In this document: positions 45,418 through 56,632 of the stretch, piece after piece
How the letters are laid out: each line of letters begins with the position of its first letter
How positions within the stretch are numbered: the first letter of the stretch is position 1
DNA from: Candidatus Corynebacterium avicola
GTDB taxonomy: Bacteria; Actinomycetota; Actinomycetes; Mycobacteriales; Mycobacteriaceae
Reading direction: 5' to 3'
Assembly: GCA_019114135.1 (NCBI GenBank)
Contig: DXGC01000043.1
Span: forward strand, 1 to 63,003
DNA: 63,003 nucleotides
The notes under the pieces: generated by a model
Told to the model about the DNA's origin: nothing
Database searches by the model: none
Seen by the model: the letters and a program-made list of their open reading frames with translations, nothing else
Translations under genes and position numbers: made by a program

Positions 45418-45436
45418 TGCTGTTAGGCTAACCGCA
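45418..45436 (+). promoter_or_regulatory. DtxR box at the siderophore-binding lipoprotein start
   Basis: TTAGGCTAACC matches the DtxR/IdeR core and 14 of 19 consensus positions agree. It ends at the first base of the ATG, so the operator would overlap a start-proximal promoter. Confidence 0.7.
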
Positions 45437-46491
45437 TGACAATCAAGACGGGATCCCGCGCACTCCCTTACCGCGCGCTCATCACGCTGGCAGCGTCCTG
45501 CCTGACCATGCTCAGCATCGCCGCCTGCGGCGACTCCTCCGACGAGAGTTCCGGCGGCTCCGGCGACGGTAGCGAGGAGGCGATCACCATCAACCACGCC
45601 CTCGGCGAGGCCGAGATCGAAGGAACCCCCGAGCGGGTCGTGGCGCTGGGCCAGGGATCCGCCGAGACCGCCATCGCCCTGGGTGTCACCCCGGTCGGTG
45701 TCGAGAGCTACGAGTGGGGCGCCGACGAGTCCGGCCACCTGCCGTGGATCCGCGAGGCCGTCGAGGAGTCCGGTGACGAGCTGCCCGAGCTGATCGCCGG
45801 TGGCGAGGACGTCTCCGCCGAGGAGATCGCCAACCTGGACCCCGACCTGGTACTCGCCCCCTGGTCCGGCATCACCCAGGAGCAGTACGACCAGATCAGC
45901 GAGATCGCCCCGACCATCGCCTATCCCGAGCAGGCGTGGACCATCAACTGGGAGGACCAGGTCAACACCATCGCCGAGGCGCTGCGCCAGGAGGAGCGTG
46001 GCCCGGAGCTGGTCGAGGAGATCGAGGACCAGTTCGCCACGGTCCGTGACGAGCACCCCGAGTTCGCCGACCACGACTTCGCCTTCATCTACAACCAGGG
46101 CCCGGGCGAGAACATGGGTGTCTTCATGCCGGACGAGCAGCGCGCCGCGGCGGTGCGCAGCATGGGCTTCGAGGTCGCACCGGTCGTCGAGGAGCTCCGC
46201 GAATACGAGGTCGCGGGCACCGACTCCGCTCAGGTCAGCCTGGAGGAGGCGAGCCGGTTCAACGACGTGGACGTGATCTTCACCTTCTACTCCGACGAGG
46301 CGAACCGCGACGAGATGCATGAGCACCCGGTGTACGGGAAGATCAGCGCGATCGAGCGCGGCGCCGAGGTCGCCCCGACCGACCAGTCACTGGTCACGGC
46401 ATCCTCGATGATCAACCCGCTGACCGTGCCCTGGATGCTGGACCACTACATGCCGCTGATCGAGGACGCGCTGGAGAACGTGGAAGATTAG
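45436..46491 (+). CDS. Iron-siderophore ABC transporter substrate-binding lipoprotein
   Basis: 351 residues. Signal peptide and lipobox in LTLAASCLTMLSIAAC-type N-terminus (lipid Cys about residue 31). The FepB/FhuD fold is visible: TPERVVALGQGSAETAIALG, NLDPDLVLAPWSGITQEQYD, APTIAYPEQAWTINWEDQVN. It would bind a ferric siderophore outside the cell. No permease or ATPase genes adjoin it, so the transporter must be completed from elsewhere. A DtxR box at the start indicates iron repression. No ribosome site, suggesting a leaderless message. Confidence 0.9.
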   Translation: MTIKTGSRALPYRALITLAASCLTMLSIAACGDSSDESSGGSGDGSEEAITINHALGEAEIEGTPERVVALGQGSAETAIALGVTPVGVESYEWGADESGHLPWIREAVEESGDELPELIAGGEDVSAEEIANLDPDLVLAPWSGITQEQYDQISEIAPTIAYPEQAWTINWEDQVNTIAEALRQEERGPELVEEIEDQFATVRDEHPEFADHDFAFIYNQGPGENMGVFMPDEQRAAAVRSMGFEVAPVVEELREYEVAGTDSAQVSLEEASRFNDVDVIFTFYSDEANRDEMHEHPVYGKISAIERGAEVAPTDQSLVTASSMINPLTVPWMLDHYMPLIEDALENVED

Positions 46492-46682: not shown

Positions 46683-47984
46683 TCAGCCCTCCGGCTGAGC
46701 GGCGGCCGCTGCCTTCGCCGCCGGCACCAGGGCGGCCTCGATCTGCTCGAAGTCGGCGTCGGTCAGCGCGGTGGAGACGAACCAGGTCTCGAAGACGCTG
46801 GGCGGCGGGAAGACACCGTTGTCCAGCAGGGCGTGGAAGAACGGGGCGTAGCGGAAGGTGTCCGCGGCCTTCATGTCGTCGAAGTTGCGGCCCTGGCCTT
46901 CGGCGAAACGGATCGACAGCATCGTGGTCGCCCGCTGGATGTGGTGGACCACACCCTCGCGGGTCAGGGCGTCGCTGACCAGGTCGCCCAACCGGTCGGC
47001 GTTGGCCTGCAGGGTGGCGTAGGTCGACTCGTCCGCCAGCTGCAGCGACGCCAGGCCGGAGGCGGTGGCCACCGGGTTACCGGACAGGGTGCCTGCCTGG
47101 TAGACGGGGCCGGAGGGGGCGAGCATGTCCATGACCTCGGCGCGTCCGCCGAAGGCCGCGGCCGGCATGCCGCCGGAGACGACCTTGCCGAAGGTGGTGA
47201 GGTCACCGGCGACACCGTCCACCCCGAACCAGCCGGAGCGCGAGGTGCGGAATCCGGTCATGACCTCGTCAAGGATCAGCAGCGCACCGTCGGCGTGGGC
47301 GATCTCCTTCAGGGCGGCGTTGAAGCCCTCCTCCGGGTGGACGGTGCCCATGTTGCCGGCGCTGGCCTCGGTGATGATCGCGGCGATCTCGCCGGGGTTG
47401 TCGGCGAAGGCCTGACGCACGGCGTCCAGGTCGTTGTACTCCACGACGATGGTCTCGGCGGCTGCCGAGGCGGTGATGCCCGGGGAGTCCGGCAGGCCCA
47501 GGGTCGCCACGCCGGACCCGGCGGCGACCAGCAGGGAATCGACGTGGCCGTGGTAGCAGCCGTTGAACTTCAGGATCTTGTCGCGGCCGGTGTAACCACG
47601 GGCCAGGCGCACCGCGGACATGGTGGCCTCGGTACCTGAGTTGACCAGGCGGACCTTCTCCACGCTGGTGCGGTCGATGATCTCCTGGGCCAGGCGGGTC
47701 TCGGACAGGGTCGGTGCGCCGAAGGACAGGCCCTTGGCGGCAGCGTCCTGCACGGCAGCGAGGACCTCCGGGTGGGCGTTGCCGTGCAGCATCGGTCCCC
47801 AGGAGCAGACCAGGTCCACATACTCGTTGCCGTCGATGTCGGTCAGGCGTGACCCGGAGGCCGAGGCGATGAAGGGGGCCACCCCACCGACGGAGCCGAA
47901 GGCGCGGACCGGGGAGTTCACACCCCCGGGCGTGACCTCACGGGCCGACCCCATCGCTGCCTCGCTGTTCACCAGGTTGCTCAT
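46683..47984 (-). CDS. hemL: Glutamate-1-semialdehyde 2,1-aminomutase
   Basis: 433 residues, PLP aminotransferase fold. The Schiff-base Lys is in [19 protein letters not shown] (about residue 265); [20 protein letters not shown] and [11 protein letters not shown] are the cofactor blocks. It makes 5-aminolevulinate from the HemA product (C5 pathway). AGGAGAG precedes the ATG. In C. glutamicum hemE and hemY adjoin it, as I recall; here a degenerate P-type ATPase homologue lies upstream instead. Confidence 0.96.
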
Positions 47985-47999
47985 CTACTGCTCTCCTGT

Positions 48000-50894
48000 T
48001 CACGTGCGTTTGTGTGTGCTGACCCCAGCATAACGGGGCCGTCCGGCCATGCCTCCGGTCGCCGTGTAGTCGCGGTGCCCGATGCGCGCCGAACGCCACT
48101 CCACCAGCAGCGACGACCCGAGCATCAGGGCGGTACCGACCAGCGGGTTGAGCACTCCGGCCACCGCGAGGACCACCGCGGCGATGTTGTAGCCCCAGGC
48201 GAAGAGCAGGTTGCCGTTCACCGTGGAGCGCACGTGGCGGGCGAGGTTGAGCGCCTCCGGGATCGCGGAGACGTCCTCACGGACCAGCACGATGTCGGCG
48301 TCGCCGGTGCCCGCGGCGGCGTGGGCGGTGCGTCCCACCGCCGGCGGGTCCAGGTGGTCGGCGGCACCCATGAGGATGCCGACGTCGGCGACGGCCAGGC
48401 AGTCCAGCACGTCCCGGTCCCCCACCATCGCCACGGTCGCACCGTTGGAGTGCACCCGGCGCACGGTGGCGGCCTTCCGGTTCGGGGAGATGCCGGCCAG
48501 GACCGTGGAGATGCCGACGGAGTCCGCCATCCGTCGGGCCACCCGGTAGGTGTCGCGCGACATCATGAAGGTCTCCACACCGGCCGCCTCCAGGGCATCG
48601 ACCGCGCCCGAGGCGTCCGGGGCGACGGTGTCAGCCAGGTTGATCACGCCCCGGGGCTCGCCCTTCCAGCTGACGACCAGCGGAGCACCACCGCTGAGTG
48701 CGGCGTTGACGAGCACGGGGTTCGTCAGTTCGGAGAGGTCCCGTGGACGCCACAGGCTTGCCATGACCTGGCGGACGGGCTTGCCGTCGCGGTCGGGCAG
48801 GTCGATCGTCGCGGAGAACACCCCGTGGTCGTCGACCTCCACCTGGCCGGCCTCCAGCCAGTGCGGCACCTCCGCCCCGCCCGAACCGCTGTCGCGGGAC
48901 TCGCGGTCGGCACGCACGATCGCCCGGCACACCCGGTGCGGGCTCTCCAGGCTGAGCGCACCGGCGACGCGCAAGACCATCTCGGGGTTCTCCCCGGTCG
49001 CGGCGGTGACACCGATGACCGACATCGGCCCGGTGCTGAGTGTGCCGGCACGGTTGAAGATGATCGCGTCGATGGCGGCGAGGTGGTGGATGGTGTCGGC
49101 GTTGCGCAGCAGGGTGCCGCCGGCCGCCGCGCGGGCCAGGCCGATGCGCAGCGACAGTGTGGTGGACACGGCCAATGCCACCGGGGCGACGGCGACCAGT
49201 ACGGTCAGGGCGGTGGCGACCGCGGCGTCCGTGCTGTCACGCACGGCGAACCAGCCGAGGCCGGCGATGACGGCGATGACCACTCCCCAGGGCACCAGCA
49301 GGCTGGCGGTCCGGGTGGCCAACTGGTCCAGCTGGTTCTCGTCCTGTTCGGCGGCGGCGATCCAACGACGCACCGCGGCGATGCGGGTACGCGAGCCGGT
49401 GCGGCTGACGCGGACCTTCAGGGGTTCGGACGTGGCGTCCCCCAGGTGCCGGGCCCCGGCGAACACCCGCGATCCGACGCTGACAGCGCCCTCGACCTGA
49501 CCGTCGGAGGCCACGCCGCCGAAGGGGCCGTTGTCCAACGCGGCGCGTCCGCCGATGACCTCACCGTCGGCGGGCACGGACTCCCCGCCGGCGACGAGGA
49601 CGTCGTCGCCGACGCGGATCTCCGCCGGGCTGATGGTGAACTTCGCCGGACGACCCTGCCGGTCGCGACGCACGACCGTCACCTTCTCCTCGGTGGTCGC
49701 ACCCGAGGGCAGGACCATGTTCAACGCCAGCATCGAGCGCAGCCGGGAGCGTCGGGACGCCAGGCGTCCGAAGAGAAGCAGCAGCGTACAGCCGCAGGCG
49801 ACGTCGAGGAAGAGGGCGTCGCCGTGGTAGCCCCAGGCGATGAGGATGTTGCCGGATCTCCACCCGGGATCACCGGCCGGCCCCGTGATCAGGACATAGG
49901 CGGAGTAGAGGTAGGCGAGGATGATCGCGGCGGACGAGGCTGCGTCCAGGGCGGGCATGCCGCGGCGCAGCCCGGCGATCATCGCCCGGTGGAAGGGCCA
50001 GGCGCACCATGTCACCACCGGCAGGGCGAGTGCCAGGCAGAGCCACTGCCAGTAGTCGAACTGCCAGGGGGTGGCGATCTGCAGCACGACGACCGGGATG
50101 CCCAGGACGGCGGCGACGAGCAGTCGGGCGCCGGTGATCAGTGCACGGGCGGTGTGCAGGACCTCGGTGTTGTCCTGTCCACCGGACAGCCACGCACCGC
50201 GCTTCCCTGCTGCGGTGCCGGGGGCACCGGGAGCACCGGAACTGTTGCCGACACCGGGGTTGACGTCCTCCCGGCGCTTGCGCAGTCGCTCCTCACGCCG
50301 GCGCCGGTTCTCCGAGATGTGGCGGCGCCCGGGGGCGGTCAGGCGTTCGGACCGGCGGCGCAGGGACGCGGCCGTCAGCCAGGACTCGACACCGTACTCG
50401 GCGAAGACCCCACGCAGAATGTCCGGGTTCAGCGACTCCGGTGCGGTCACCCACGCCATTGCCGTGGAGTAGACCACGCGGGCCTGCACTCCCGGCAGCG
50501 TGTTCAGTGCCGCCTCGATCTCCCCGGCGCGTACCGCCGAGGCCAGTCCGTCGAAGTGGAAGGTGAAGGAGGTCAGCTGCGCACCGGCCCGACGTGTGGT
50601 GCCGGGACGGGCACCACGGAAACCTGCAGCGACGCCAGCGAACCCTGCGCCCGCTGTGTCCGCTGTGTCCGCTGCGTTTTCAGTGTCCTCGTCGTCCTCC
50701 GTGTCCAGCCCCGCGGCATGCGCTGCCGCCCGGGCGGCAGCGATCGCACGGTTGACGGCGTCTGGTGTGTCTGGGGTGTCTGGGGCCTCGGGGCTGTCCT
50801 GGATGTCCGGGGTACCAGTGACCTCAGACGTTTCGGTTGACGTGGAGATGTCGCGGGAGGAGTCGCGGGAGAACTCGGAGGTTGTGTCGGCCAT
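48000..50894 (-). CDS. P-type ATPase homologue lacking all catalytic motifs (pseudoenzyme)
   Basis: 964 residues in one open frame. Overall layout is that of a metal P1B-ATPase: N-terminal HMA-like fold (FHFDGLASAVRAGEIEAALN), about eight membrane helices, actuator, phosphorylation and nucleotide domains. The key residues are replaced: the DKTGT loop reads IIFNRAGTLSTG with Asn (AAC, 49053-49055) for the phosphorylated Asp; CPC reads VAPVALAVS; the TGES region reads DNGPFGGVASDGQ; TGD reads MMSRDTYR; GDGxND reads MVGDRDVLDCLA; the GMTCxxC metal site reads GLASAVR. A catalytically dead protein kept intact between hemL and hemB. Confidence 0.85.
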   Translation of the reverse strand: MADTTSEFSRDSSRDISTSTETSEVTGTPDIQDSPEAPDTPDTPDAVNRAIAAARAAAHAAGLDTEDDEDTENAADTADTAGAGFAGVAAGFRGARPGTTRRAGAQLTSFTFHFDGLASAVRAGEIEAALNTLPGVQARVVYSTAMAWVTAPESLNPDILRGVFAEYGVESWLTAASLRRRSERLTAPGRRHISENRRRREERLRKRREDVNPGVGNSSGAPGAPGTAAGKRGAWLSGGQDNTEVLHTARALITGARLLVAAVLGIPVVVLQIATPWQFDYWQWLCLALALPVVTWCAWPFHRAMIAGLRRGMPALDAASSAAIILAYLYSAYVLITGPAGDPGWRSGNILIAWGYHGDALFLDVACGCTLLLLFGRLASRRSRLRSMLALNMVLPSGATTEEKVTVVRRDRQGRPAKFTISPAEIRVGDDVLVAGGESVPADGEVIGGRAALDNGPFGGVASDGQVEGAVSVGSRVFAGARHLGDATSEPLKVRVSRTGSRTRIAAVRRWIAAAEQDENQLDQLATRTASLLVPWGVVIAVIAGLGWFAVRDSTDAAVATALTVLVAVAPVALAVSTTLSLRIGLARAAAGGTLLRNADTIHHLAAIDAIIFNRAGTLSTGPMSVIGVTAATGENPEMVLRVAGALSLESPHRVCRAIVRADRESRDSGSGGAEVPHWLEAGQVEVDDHGVFSATIDLPDRDGKPVRQVMASLWRPRDLSELTNPVLVNAALSGGAPLVVSWKGEPRGVINLADTVAPDASGAVDALEAAGVETFMMSRDTYRVARRMADSVGISTVLAGISPNRKAATVRRVHSNGATVAMVGDRDVLDCLAVADVGILMGAADHLDPPAVGRTAHAAAGTGDADIVLVREDVSAIPEALNLARHVRSTVNGNLLFAWGYNIAAVVLAVAGVLNPLVGTALMLGSSLLVEWRSARIGHRDYTATGGMAGRPRYAGVSTHKRT

Positions 50895-50897
50895 GGG

Positions 50898-51398
50898 TCA
50901 CTGTTCCAACTCACCCGGACTACCGCCGAAGTACGTACGCAGCGCCGGACGGTACATCGCGAGCAGGGCAAGAGCCATCAACAGCGCGACCAGGGCCTGC
51001 CAGGTGGCACTAAGACCGAACACCCACCCCACCAGGGTGAATGCCATGGTGACCAGGACGACCGTCATCAACCAACGGCGGCGCTTTCCGTCCCCACGCA
51101 ACAGCCCGGGCATCAGCCACGCCATGAGTAAGGCACCTGCGATCTGCACGGTACCGACCCACTTCAGGTTGGTGGAGACAAAGTTGAAGGCGGCCTGCTG
51201 GTCAGCGTCCTCCGCCGACGGGGGCTTGTCCAGCCACATGTCGATGCCGCTGTACAGCAGGGCGATCGAGGAGATCAGCAGCAGGACGAAGGCCAGCTTC
51301 GCTGTCCCGGGGATACCGTCACCGGGCTGCCAGTAGTTGATCCGCCGGTTCGGGTCACTCGGGTCGGAGTTGTGGGAGACCGGGAACATCGTGGGCAT
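50898..51398 (-). CDS. Membrane protein of the haem cluster (Rv0514/0513-like position)
   Basis: 166 residues with four helices: LAFVLLLISSIALLYSGIDM, WVGTVQIAGALLMAWLMPGL, WLMTVVLVTMAFTLVGWVFG and ALVALLMALALLAMYRPALR. No catalytic motif. It starts 2 bases after the next membrane gene and ends 3 bases before the ATPase homologue, so the three are probably one transcript downstream of hemB. Unknown function. Confidence 0.78.
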   Translation of the reverse strand: MPTMFPVSHNSDPSDPNRRINYWQPGDGIPGTAKLAFVLLLISSIALLYSGIDMWLDKPPSAEDADQQAAFNFVSTNLKWVGTVQIAGALLMAWLMPGLLRGDGKRRRWLMTVVLVTMAFTLVGWVFGLSATWQALVALLMALALLAMYRPALRTYFGGSPGELEQ

Positions 51399-51400
51399 GG

Positions 51401-52294
51401 TCAGTCGCCCTTCTTCCGACGTTCCTGCTCGGCCTTCTGTTCAGCCTTCTTGGCCTCCTTCTTGGCCTTCTTCTCTGCGCGCTCCTTGTCCAGCTCCTCA
51501 TTGCGCTTGGCGACCTTCTCGGCGTAGGCCTCGACCTCCGCCTTGCCCGGCAGGCCGAACCAGTCGGCGGTGTCCGGCCGGGTCACCAGCCACACACCGA
51601 CCACGGCGATGACGCCGGAGATGATGGTGCCCGCACCGATCAGCAGCACCAGCGGGGTACTTCCGCTGTCCGGCGGTGAGGTGAAGACCTGCAGCAACGC
51701 CATCAGGGCGAGGTAGATCGAGCCGACAATGAGGAAGGCGCGCGAGCGCACACCACCGCGGGCCACCCTGGTGGTGAGGTAGGTGCACACCGACACCGCG
51801 ATGAGGATCACCAGCAGGCTGGAGATGATCGTGCCGTTGACCATGGTCTGCTCGTCGACACCGTCGACCATGGAGAAGGAGTCACTCTGTTCGCGGACCT
51901 GCGCGGTGACTGTGCGAGGGTCCTGGAAGGACATCACCATCTGCAGCACGGCGGTCAGCGCCTGCACGGCGGCGACGATGTACCAGGCGCGCACACCGTC
52001 CCGGACGTTGTCCGGGGCATCCTTGGCCGAGCGTGCCAGGCCGTCAGGACGTCCCACCTTCGGCGGGACCGGGAAGCCGTCGGACGGACGGGACTCGCGG
52101 CGTCCTTTGTCGCGGCGTCCTGAACCCTGGCGGTCGGAGTCCGGTCCGTACAGGGGTCGCCGACGGCGACCGCCCTCGGCGCGCCGGTCCGCCTGGTCAC
52201 CGGAACCGGCGCCGGTGGAATGGTCGCGGTCGTCCGGACGCTCGCGGGTGTCGCCCCGACGGTCACTGGGGTCCTGCGGGTTCTGATGCGTCAT
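51401..52294 (-). CDS. Membrane protein with long basic N-terminus, downstream of hemB
   Basis: 297 residues. The first 95 are hydrophilic and rich in Asp, Arg and Gly (RRGDTRERPDDRDHSTGAGS). Four helices follow (YIVAAVQALTAVLQMVMSF; IISSLLVILIAVSVCTYLTT; AFLIVGSIYLALMALLQVF; LLIGAGTIISGVIAVVGVWL). The tail is a charged coiled-coil-like run (KRNEELDKERAEKKAKKEAK). It follows hemB by 51 bases, like Rv0513 in M. tuberculosis. Unknown function. Confidence 0.78.
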   Translation of the reverse strand: MTHQNPQDPSDRRGDTRERPDDRDHSTGAGSGDQADRRAEGGRRRRPLYGPDSDRQGSGRRDKGRRESRPSDGFPVPPKVGRPDGLARSAKDAPDNVRDGVRAWYIVAAVQALTAVLQMVMSFQDPRTVTAQVREQSDSFSMVDGVDEQTMVNGTIISSLLVILIAVSVCTYLTTRVARGGVRSRAFLIVGSIYLALMALLQVFTSPPDSGSTPLVLLIGAGTIISGVIAVVGVWLVTRPDTADWFGLPGKAEVEAYAEKVAKRNEELDKERAEKKAKKEAKKAEQKAEQERRKKGD

Positions 52295-52345: not shown

Positions 52346-53368
52346 TCAGCCGCGCAGCAGCCGGGCGGCCTCCGTGGCCCAGTAGGTCAGGATGATGTCC
52401 GCGCCGGCGCGACGGATGCCGGTCAGTGAGTCGATGATCGCCGGTTCCCGGTCGATCCAGCCCTTCTCGGCGGCGGCGGAGATCATCGAGTACTCCCCCG
52501 ACACCTGGTAGGCAGCGACCGGCACGGATGAGAAGTCGGCGACCTGTCGCAGCACGTCGAGGTACGGCATCGCCGGCTTCACCATGACCATGTCCGCGCC
52601 CTCCTCGATGTCGAGCTCCACCTCGAGCAGGGACTCGCGGGCGTTGCGGGGGTCCTGCTGGTAGGTCTTGCGGTCGCCCTTGAGCGTGGAGCCGACGGCC
52701 TCACGGAAGGGACCGTAGAAGGCACCTGCGTACTTCGCGGAGTAGGCCATGATGCTGACGTCCTGGAACCCGGCGGCGTCGAGAGCTTCGCGGATGACCC
52801 GGATCTGGCCGTCCATCATCCCCGAGGGGCTGACCACGTGAGCGCCGGCCTCGGCCTGGGCGACCGCCATCGCGGCGTAGAGCGGGAGGGTGGCGTCATT
52901 GTCGATGATCGTCTTACCGAAACGATCCTCGGTGAGCACACCGCAGTGACCGTGGTCGGTGAACTCGTCGAGGCAGGTGTCGGCCATGACGATGAGGTCG
53001 TCGCCGAACTCGCGACGCAGTGCAGCCACGCCCTTGTTGAGGATGCCGTCCTCGGCCCAGGCCTGGGAGCCGGAGGCGTCCTTGCTCTCGTCGGTGGGCA
53101 CGCCGAACAGGTCGACGGAGCCGACGCCCGCGTTCAGCGCCTCCTCCGCCGCCTTGAGCAGGGAGGTCTCGGTGTGCTGCTGCACCCCGGGCATCGAGGT
53201 GATGTCGTTGGGGGTGTCGATGCCGTCCCGGATGAACATCGGCAGGACGAACTGCGAAGGCTCCAGGTGCGTCTCCGCGACGAAGTTGCGCATGGTCTGG
53301 GTGGTGCGCAGCCGGCGGGGACGGCGGTACGGGGTGTTGAGGTTGTCAGCGGCATGGGCGGCGTTCAT
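52346..53368 (-). CDS. hemB: Delta-aminolevulinic acid dehydratase (porphobilinogen synthase)
   Basis: 340 residues. Both catalytic lysines are visible: [18 protein letters not shown] and [16 protein letters not shown]. The metal region reads [15 protein letters not shown], with two Cys rather than the three of classic zinc enzymes, as in mycobacterial HemB. It joins two 5-aminolevulinates into porphobilinogen. Between it and hemD lie inverted repeat F and the hemD terminator, so it is probably expressed separately from hemA-C-D. Confidence 0.95.
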
Positions 53369-53648: not shown

Positions 53649-55514
53649 CTACTGCTCGGGCTTCACGCGGCGACGGCGACGTCGCTTACGCGGCGGCGGC
53701 AGCTGACCGGCGGCACGCAGCTCGGCGACGTGGTTCGCCAGGGCGTCCACCAGCTCCGGGACACCGGCGACCTCGGGCATCACGTCGACCCGCAGTCCGT
53801 GCTCGCGGGCGGTCTGTGCGGCCATCGGGCCGATGCAGGCGATGATCGTGCGGGTGTGCGGCTTACCGGCGATGCCGACCAGGTTCTTCACCGTCGACGA
53901 GGAGGTGAAGCACACCGCGTCGAAGCCACCGGACTTGATCATGTCGCGGATCTCCTGGCTGGGCGGGGCGGCGCGCACGGTGCGGTAGGCCACGACGTCC
54001 TCCACGGACCAACCGAGGTCGATGAGCCCCTCGACGAGGGTCTCTGTGGCGATGTCGGCGCGCGGCAGCAGCACCCGGTCCACCGGGTCCAGGTCCGGGT
54101 CGTAGGGCGGGAAGACATCCACCAGGCCGGAGGCGTTGCGGGCGTTCGCCGCCGGCAGCAGCTCCGGGGTGATGCCCAGGTCGCGGACCGCCTGGGCGGT
54201 CTTCGCACCGACCGCGGCGACGCGCACACCGGCGAGGGCACGGGCGTCCAGACCGAACTCGGCGAGCTTCTCCCACGTGGCCTTCACCGCGTTGACGGAG
54301 GTGAAGACGATCCAGTGGTAGCGACCGTCGACCAGACCCTTGACCGCACGCTCCATCTGCGCGGGGCTGCGCGGCGGCTCCACGGAGATCGTGGGGACCT
54401 CGATCGGGATCGCACCATGCGTGGCCAGGCGGCCGCTCATCGGGCCGGCCTGCGCCTTCGCGCGCGGCACCAGGACGTTCCAGCCGTACAGCGACCGGTT
54501 CTCCCACCAGGAGTACTTGCTGCGGCTGCTGGCCTGCTTTCCGATGGTGACCACGAGCTGCTCGGGGATCTCCCCCTCCTTGGCCAGCGGCCCGGAGGCG
54601 GCGACCACGGACTTCAGCGTGTCGAGGGTGACGTCGTAGGAGCGCTGACGACGGGTCGTCGCGTGGGAGGTGACGGTGACCGGGGTGGCACCGGCGATGT
54701 TGCGTCGCTTGAGCTCACCGGTGATCACCACCAGATCGCCCGGGGCGGCGGTGAGGATGAGCGGCTTCGGCGCGGCGGCGATGCCGTCCCAGTCGACCTC
54801 GGCGGCCTCACCGGTGGCGGCGTCGGCGGTCAGGTCGACGGCGGTGTAGCCCTCACCGGTGGAGATACCGGTGTAGGCGGGCAGCGCCGAGGCACCGGTC
54901 ATGCCGGGGACGACCTCGAACTCGACTCCGAGAGCGGCGACCTCCTGCAGCTCCATGAGCACGGCAGGGTTCGACACCGGGTTACCGGCGACCAGGCGCA
55001 CCACGTTGTGCCCGTGGCGGACGCACTCGACCATCTCGTGGGCGAGCTGGTCGGCGGGCATCGCTCCACCGGTCTCGCCGGAGTCGGCGGGGGCGTCCCC
55101 GGCGGCGTAGGCCTCGGCGTCGGCGGCGGCACGGGCCTCCGCGGCGGCGATCTCGGACGCTGCCTCGGCGGTGTACGGGGCGGCCACCACGATGTCGGCG
55201 GCGGTGACCGGCTCCGGACGCCGCGGGCGGCGGCGGGCTCCGGCGGCCTTCGCGGCCTCGAGCTCGGCCTCCCACTCCTTCTCCGCGGCGGCGAGCTTCT
55301 CCTCGGGCACCGGCAGTGCCTCGGCGATGATGGCGCGCACCTGCTGGGTGACGGCCGGGTCGACCCATGCGGCGGCGGTGTTCGCCAGGATCTCGCGGGC
55401 GCGCACGGTCAGCAGTTCTGCGTTTCCAGGTCCAGCGCCCACGAACAGGACGCGTCCCCGGCCGGTCAGCGAACCGGTTGATGAACCGGTCTGGGGGATT
55501 CCGGCAGTGGTCAT
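53649..55514 (-). CDS. hemD: Uroporphyrinogen-III synthase fused to a SUMT-like domain
   Basis: 621 residues. N-terminal half resembles the SAM uroporphyrinogen methyltransferase (GRVLFVGAGPGNAELLTVRA; VVPGMTGASALPAYTGI; LVVITGELKRRNIAGATPV), but the usual GGDP-type motif reads VRLVAGNPVSNP, and an Ala/Glu-rich segment is inserted (about residues 60-150). The C-terminal half is HemD (NVLVPRAKAQAGPMSGRLA; VFTSVNAVKATWEKL; VCFTSSSTVKNLVG) and ends in a basic tail (PPPRKRRRRRRVKP). It closes the tetrapyrrole ring. Same fusion as Rv0511. Downstream of hemC by 128 bases. Confidence 0.92.
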   Translation of the reverse strand: MTTAGIPQTGSSTGSLTGRGRVLFVGAGPGNAELLTVRAREILANTAAAWVDPAVTQQVRAIIAEALPVPEEKLAAAEKEWEAELEAAKAAGARRRPRRPEPVTAADIVVAAPYTAEAASEIAAAEARAAADAEAYAAGDAPADSGETGGAMPADQLAHEMVECVRHGHNVVRLVAGNPVSNPAVLMELQEVAALGVEFEVVPGMTGASALPAYTGISTGEGYTAVDLTADAATGEAAEVDWDGIAAAPKPLILTAAPGDLVVITGELKRRNIAGATPVTVTSHATTRRQRSYDVTLDTLKSVVAASGPLAKEGEIPEQLVVTIGKQASSRSKYSWWENRSLYGWNVLVPRAKAQAGPMSGRLATHGAIPIEVPTISVEPPRSPAQMERAVKGLVDGRYHWIVFTSVNAVKATWEKLAEFGLDARALAGVRVAAVGAKTAQAVRDLGITPELLPAANARNASGLVDVFPPYDPDLDPVDRVLLPRADIATETLVEGLIDLGWSVEDVVAYRTVRAAPPSQEIRDMIKSGGFDAVCFTSSSTVKNLVGIAGKPHTRTIIACIGPMAAQTAREHGLRVDVMPEVAGVPELVDALANHVAELRAAGQLPPPRKRRRRRRVKPEQ

Positions 55515-55642: not shown

Positions 55643-56632
55643 TCAACGGGAGCCGACGATGTCGTTGATGATGTCCGCGGCACCACCGTCTATGAGTTGG
55701 CGGCCCACGTCACGGCCGAGTTTCTCGGCCGCGGCGCGTATGGTCGGCCACTCCCCCTCGGCATGTGGATCGAGGTCGGCAACGGAGACGGATGCGTCGC
55801 GCACCAGTTGGCGTACCCCGTCCATCCCGAAGACGCCGCCCCTGAGGGTCAGCGTCCCGTCGACGAACTCGGAATAGGCACCCACCGGAGCGGTGCATCC
55901 GGCCTGCAGTTCCGCCAGGACGGAGCGCTCGGCCACGGCACGGGCGTGGGACTCGGGGTCGTCGAGGGTCAGGACGGCGTCGATGGCGTCGGCGTCGTCG
56001 GCGCGGACCTCCACGCACAGCGCACCCTGGGCCGGGGCGGGCACCATGTCGTCCACGGCGATGACCTCGGAAGCGCGGTCGAGCTGACCGACACGGTCCA
56101 GGCCGGCGTGGGCGAGCACGACGGCGGCGAGGTCCTCCTCGCCGCCACGGACGCGTCCCATGCGGGTGTCGATGTTGCCGCGGATCGGCACGATCTCCAG
56201 GTCAGGACGCAGTGCGCGCACCTGGGAGACCCGTCGCGGGGCCCCGGTGCCGATCTTCGCCCCCTCCGGCAGTTCACGCAGGGAGGCGTCATTGAGGCTG
56301 ACCAGGACGTCCCGCGGGTTGACGCGCTGCGGGACGACCGAGATGAAACGGTCGTCCGGAGCGGTCGGCAGGTCCTTGAAGGAGTGCACGGCCACATCGC
56401 ACTCCCCTGCGGCCAGGGCGTTGCGCAGGGTCTCGGTGAAGACACCGACACCGATGCGGTTCACCGGGGTCTGCGCCTTCTGGGAGGCGTCACCGGGGGT
56501 GTGCACGAAGTGCAGTTCGGCACCGTCGATGCTCTCGGTGGCGTCCTGGGCACGCAGTGCATCACGCACGGTGCCCGCCTGGGTGCGGGCCAGCGTGCTG
56601 GCCCGGGTTCCGACCAGGAGGGTGCGGGTCAC
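55643..56632 (-). CDS. hemC: Porphobilinogen deaminase (hydroxymethylbilane synthase)
   Basis: 329 residues from a GTG at 56632 that overlaps the hemA stop (GTGA), so translation is coupled. LLVGTRASTLARTQAGTVRD, HSFKDLP with a catalytic Asp region, GTGAPRRVSQVRALRPDLE and the cofactor Cys in LAELQAGCTAPVGAYSE identify the family. It polymerises four porphobilinogens on a dipyrromethane cofactor. Confidence 0.96.
   Translation of the reverse strand: MTRTLLVGTRASTLARTQAGTVRDALRAQDATESIDGAELHFVHTPGDASQKAQTPVNRIGVGVFTETLRNALAAGECDVAVHSFKDLPTAPDDRFISVVPQRVNPRDVLVSLNDASLRELPEGAKIGTGAPRRVSQVRALRPDLEIVPIRGNIDTRMGRVRGGEEDLAAVVLAHAGLDRVGQLDRASEVIAVDDMVPAPAQGALCVEVRADDADAIDAVLTLDDPESHARAVAERSVLAELQAGCTAPVGAYSEFVDGTLTLRGGVFGMDGVRQLVRDASVSVADLDPHAEGEWPTIRAAAEKLGRDVGRQLIDGGAADIINDIVGSR

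Follow-up and report, generated by a model that had tools for sequence, protein, structure and literature searches.

P1B-type ATPases pump metal ions, and their canonical motifs have distinct roles: the Asp of DKTGT is phosphorylated, TGE forms the dephosphorylation loop, GDGxND binds Mg and CPC is the metal motif of membrane segment M4. Another P-type ATPase, KdpB, is active as the ATPase subunit of a potassium transporter composed of several parts. The present analysis concerns a relative of the metal pumps, encoded among haem synthesis genes in Candidatus Corynebacterium avicola (assembly GCA_019114135.1, contig DXGC01000043.1, positions 1 to 63,003, i.e. 63,003 nucleotides, hereafter the window), in which most catalytic motifs are replaced:

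48000..50894, minus strand: pseudo-P1B-ATPase gene (964 codons), ATG to stop, no internal stop

This protein and its family differ from the copper P1B-ATPases CopA and ATP7B by lacking the catalytic Asp and Lys, TGE, GDGxND, CPC and CxxC. They resemble KdpB in being of P-type fold and accompanied by membrane partners, yet the match to the KdpB profile was weak (74 bits, far under the equivalog cut-off of 527.9) and the family's neighbours are haem genes. The closest published case found is guanylyl cyclase beta of Plasmodium, whose degenerated P4-ATPase domain is said, in the portions of the report consulted, to be without most signature residues (PMC6592433). There, too, according to the same portions, a protein that serves a different purpose retains a P-type ATPase fold (PMC6592433), but that domain is of the eukaryotic lipid-flippase type and fused to a cyclase, whereas the present family is stand-alone, of the bacterial metal-pump type and carries a fixed replacement motif. 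The sister cyclase alpha retains the Asp, and excerpts from a second report state that a D756N parasite was unobtainable (PMC7858053). Among the open-access papers listed by the searches made, none was found to describe a stand-alone pseudoenzyme in the P-type ATPase superfamily, and none dealt with the present family.

An initial annotation of the window had proposed an intact P-type ATPase homologue with every catalytic motif replaced. The uninterrupted frame was confirmed, as was the Asn codon in FNRAGT, and the features concerned are:

49041..49058, minus strand: FNRAGT (residues 613-618) replacing the phosphorylation motif DKTGT; Asn614 codon AAC at 49053-49055
49515..49538, minus strand: TGE-loop region of the actuator (A) domain (residues 453-460), loop motif lost, sequence variable, 0/8 positions invariant
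49179..49187, minus strand: A-P-V (residues 570-572) replacing CPC in M4
48546..48557, minus strand: R-D-T-Y (residues 780-783) replacing GDN of TGDN; Arg780, Asp781 and Tyr783 invariant
48408..48422, minus strand: G-D-R-D-V (residues 825-829) replacing GDGxND, shorter by one residue and without the second Asp
48474..48476, minus strand: Lys807, retained Lys of the phosphorylation (P) domain
48936..48938, minus strand: His653, retained His of the SEHP motif in the nucleotide-binding (N) domain
50376..50576, minus strand: predicted HMA-like domain without CxxC (residues 107-173)

Motif columns were compared between 103 non-redundant family members (those under 88% identity out of 161, the window's included) and 113 P1B-ATPases, which were selected for DKTGT so that this column is fixed by choice; one pump locus (L185), of which one reading gave just a 47-residue frame, was excluded. 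Asp was replaced by Asn and Lys by Arg in 103/103 family rows. The second Asp of GDGxND was found in 0/103 rows, the second Cys of CPC in 0/103 and the first in 1/103, and Cys of CxxC at neither column in any row. The window's protein lacks TGE, and Glu occurred in the TGE column in 4/103 rows, the loop alignment being unsure. At the ATP site of the N domain the picture was mixed: the Glu of column 648 was lost in 103/103 and the second Gly of GxG persisted in 5/103, but the His was retained (see below). The claim that every motif is replaced was slightly overstated, since TGD became (S/T/A/C)RD with its Asp retained in 103/103, and the first Asp of GDG (90/103), Lys807 (103/103) and the SEHP His (102/103) were also kept. 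In addition, Asp364 occupies the column of a conserved Glu.

The replacement is a property of the whole family. All 41 Corynebacterium loci, the window's among them (29 from a first genome search and 12 named contigs), read FNRxG; among 191 family proteins Asn-Arg was present in 191, as FNRxG in 190 and as MNRxG in one from C. kutscheri. F613, N614, R615, G617, P571, R780, D781 and Y783 were without variation in the 161 aligned rows. An intact DKTGT in close relatives, named beforehand as the sign that would speak against a conserved pseudoenzyme, was found in none of these 41 loci or 191 proteins.

Judging from sequence, the family descends from a P1B-ATPase: matches to Pfam E1-E2_ATPase (8.9e-26) and to a copper ATPase of the PDB (7e-43) were far beyond chance, and both the P-type fold and domain order are preserved. 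Yet it is not classed as a P1B pump because it lacks the defining motifs (DKTGT, TGE, GDGxND and CPC); scores for the NCBIfam subfamily profiles TIGR01525 (272 bits, cut-off 346.25) and TIGR01511 (211.8 bits, cut-off 397) likewise remained below threshold. Rather, it agrees with a pseudoenzyme, i.e. an enzyme-family homologue that has lost catalytic residues and is maintained by purifying selection, and it resembles other pseudoenzymes retaining a fold for binding. In public records its members are called 'heavy metal translocating P-type ATPase' or 'copper-exporting P-type ATPase'. The motifs contradict both labels, and conclusions on metal handling that rely on such names are doubtful. With the catalytic Asp, the Mg-binding site and TGE all gone, no phospho-enzyme cycle would be expected and hence no pumping; the family is very probably non-pumping. 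An unorthodox active pump, whose cycle would dispense with the usual residues (e.g. through deamidation of the Asn), could point to the surviving fold and to some remaining nucleotide-site residues, but the Lys, the TGE Glu and a Mg-binding Asp have gone as well and no member read retains the phosphorylated Asp, which makes such a pump highly improbable.

Selection on the gene was estimated from nine close pairs, in which the ratio of nonsynonymous to synonymous divergence (dN/dS) was 0.034-0.130, rather than near 1, as compared with 0.008-0.110 for hemB, 0.031-0.092 for hemL and 0.033-0.189 for ResB. The pseudo-ATPase is thus under strong purifying selection. The view that it is merely a decaying pump gene could draw on the 58 of 242 genus genomes without the gene by score and on the only broken copy met, in genome G260 (locus L140), where matches lie in three separate frames; since that genome is listed as 77% complete, a sequencing error is possible there. 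Against it stand the low dN/dS, the absence of DKTGT from the orthologues read and the new residues fixed in 161/161 rows. Recent decay is ruled out on these grounds, the fixed substitutions refute decay as a general account, and of all the readings considered here it is the least credible; the earlier proposal of a conserved pseudoenzyme therefore stood. In several pairs the synonymous divergence of the pseudo-ATPase was higher than that of its neighbours. It departed from theirs in loci L035, L039, L040 and L041 (e.g. 0.394 vs 0.088-0.234 for L039-L041), and the excess may reflect independent recombination.

Constraint was then located along the protein. Nine of 16 positions in the active-site loops of the HAD fold were invariant, compared with 96/694 core positions (p 6.5e-5 for loop positions of our own choosing), and the invariant residues would cluster in space, as suggested by known HAD loops. 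For comparison with intact pumps, the mean pairwise identity of each region was divided by each group's own core mean, using 1,500 random pairs per group; these ratios were used since no intact-pump pair fell in the identity range of a matched-divergence comparison, and the intact pumps had partly been picked by their match to the pseudo-ATPase. Relative identity was higher in the family than in the pumps for the N domain (1.08 vs 0.73), the P domain (1.10 vs 1.00) and the active-site loops (1.47 vs 1.29), and nearly equal for M1-2 (1.01 vs 0.99). It was lower for the A domain (0.87 vs 1.02), the TGE loop (0.67 vs 1.07), M3-4 (0.97 vs 1.11) and M5-6 (0.94 vs 1.18). The headpiece has thus gained constraint at the expense of the transport path and of the dephosphorylation loop.

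This distribution bears on a passive channel or carrier whose membrane part would move a substrate without ATP. Such a function would fit the retention of Pro571 (103/103), Tyr902 (103/103), Asn903 (101/103) and Met924 (97/103), as well as Glu932, which is new in the family and near invariant (100/103). Yet, compared with pumps, conservation is lower along the membrane path and higher in the headpiece, and we regard a channel as improbable. It is mainly because constraint moved from the transport path to the headpiece that binding or docking is preferred.

With binding or docking, the P and N domains would now be the working part, with invariant Asn614-Arg615, Arg780-Asp781-Tyr783 and Lys807 in loops predicted to line the HAD active site; constraint on the A domain and the ion path would have loosened. 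The rebuilt site might bind a ligand, or the domains might dock a partner protein, the membrane part anchoring the headpiece next to the products of two neighbouring genes, P2 and P3. Together with these and the haem enzymes, it may act as a membrane sensor or scaffold, as gene order suggests. A haem or cytochrome role, again from gene order, is somewhat favoured. The combined proposal is that the membrane protein does not pump and that its headpiece would bind a ligand or a partner and thereby tune haem or cytochrome synthesis; in our estimate it has an even chance of being right. A more specific version is tentative and rather doubtful: a copper pump remade as a membrane receptor, in which a pocket of Asn-Arg, Arg-Asp-Tyr and Lys would bind a small anionic ligand (nucleotide, phosphate or haem precursor) and signal its level to neighbouring enzymes that build haem or cytochromes. 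The metal sensor suggested in the initial annotation found no support, since neither Cys pair remains.

Several points weigh against the combined proposal. A structural role might also account for the invariant loop residues, and the sets compared for constraint were unequal in diversity (median identity 0.509 vs 0.715). Tyr902, Asn903 and Met924 are largely retained, which a pure headpiece role would not need. The argument for haem is one of gene order alone, and the haem genes were kept in 19/19 loci read from genomes without the pseudo-ATPase, a gene lacking by score from the 58 genomes mentioned above. If structural, the residues could lock the shape of a ligand-free, non-pumping headpiece, in which case the protein would anchor its neighbours structurally or act as a chaperone in their assembly. 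The A-domain loop has indeed drifted while Asn, Arg and Arg-Asp-Tyr stayed constant, as in a fixed salt-bridge network, and the protein keeps its position next to P2 and P3; but the N domain is conserved too, including its SEHP His, which exceeds the needs of a lock, and we consider this explanation unlikely.

Gene order, from which the haem role is drawn, involves the following genes of the window:

55643-56632, minus strand: hemC
53649-55514, minus strand: fused methylase/hemD
52346..53368, minus strand: hemB, porphobilinogen synthase
51401..52294, minus strand: P3, membrane protein gene after hemB
50898..51398, minus strand: P2, small membrane protein gene
46683..47984, minus strand: hemL
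45436-46491, plus strand: periplasmic-binding-protein gene, PF01497 (iron-siderophore lipoprotein type)

On the minus strand the order is hemC, methylase/hemD fusion, hemB, P3, P2, pseudo-ATPase and hemL. Only 3 bases separate the P2 stop from the pseudo-ATPase start codon and 15 bases the pseudo-ATPase stop from the hemL start, so that these three genes are likely on one shared transcript. Across the genus, hemB precedes the pseudo-ATPase in 17/17 loci read on both sides, and the linkage to hemB and two small membrane genes proposed earlier is well founded. Its fixed place between hemL and hemB was true in part: hemL lies directly 3' in 11/12 long named loci, but in the loci with a continuing contig the next recognised gene 3' was hemE (then hemY) in 12/16 and hemL in 4/16 (one locus, L036, being counted in both sets). 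The source genome also encodes intact relatives (L175 and L176, both reading DKTGT), which could be partners for a pseudo-ATPase regulating an intact P1B pump, e.g. by pairing; as the pseudo-ATPase has haem genes rather than a metal pump in its vicinity, a regulator of this kind is quite improbable. In C. glutamicum copper induces hemL and ccs genes, and the passages available from that paper hold nothing on the pseudo-ATPase (PMC3140484).

The pseudo-ATPase was present by score in 184/242 Corynebacterium genomes, its motif being read in 37 of these 184. Two of 186 original matches were removed, namely G031 (L030 reads DKTGT) and G217 (match unread; haem locus L157 without the gene), and the split copy of G260 was retained. 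From genomes first scored as lacking the gene or weakly matching, 20 hemB loci were taken; 19 of them, all but that of G260, showed no pseudo-ATPase match and displayed hemB, then at least one small open frame, then hemE. Missing by score from 58/242 genomes, the gene is dispensable in some lineages. In a tree of hemB, hemE, hemY and hemL from 37 loci (midpoint root, several deep forks weak, rows missing for hemE in 5, hemY in 5 and hemL in 8), the 19 gene-less loci formed one main group and occupied two further places, so that gain or loss occurred more than once (at least three changes). A link to haem uptake was rejected since HtaA (PF04213) was no commoner with the pseudo-ATPase (88/184) than without it (28/58).

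One family member was also searched against 298 genomes of the order, five of them Corynebacterium. Four of the five matched at 711-769 bits and the fifth was without the gene by score, while all others reached at most 312 bits. Outside the genus the best matches read DKTGT in 26/26 loci, as did 67/67 non-Corynebacterium loci of another search. Among the best 120 matches listed per protein search none was named C. glutamicum, which was not counted as absence; records of C. callunae and C. deserti do carry the gene. One member with FNR (P0169) bears the name Staphylococcus chromogenes, probably because the assembly is contaminated or was misnamed.

In a quick tree using 22 of 161 family rows, the family was a single clade with full support in the Shimodaira-Hasegawa-like approximate likelihood ratio test (SH-aLRT); its stem measured 2.65 changes per site, indicating heavy early change followed by constraint; with this method and so long a stem, the exact sister among intact pumps was not resolved. 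A P2/P3-type gene also lay 3' of hemB in 8/11 loci outside the genus, a count that cannot tell P2 from P3 as their profiles cross-match after iteration; since the type occurs there as well, the pseudo-ATPase likely joined an older P2/P3 pair. With an active site replaced in a fixed manner, constraint that has moved into the headpiece and a slot in one cluster that is either filled or empty, the family makes it testable what a P-type fold does when it does not pump.

The remaining genes of the cluster complete the picture. The PF01497 gene is divergent and sits between hemL and the cluster's phosphatase-like gene; past it, histidine-phosphatase-like, thioredoxin-like and CcdA-like genes and ResB follow, again on the minus strand. 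In the source genome hemE is found on a different contig (C13, locus L110), beside an oxidoreductase-like (hemY-like) frame, and this pair has therefore been relocated out of the haem cluster. Contig C48 (L111) carries a further URO-D match, which is partial and 207 codons long. Finally, a 942-codon open frame runs antisense to the pseudo-ATPase on the plus strand (48012-50840) and probably represents a shadow frame of the kind common in GC-rich coding sequence.
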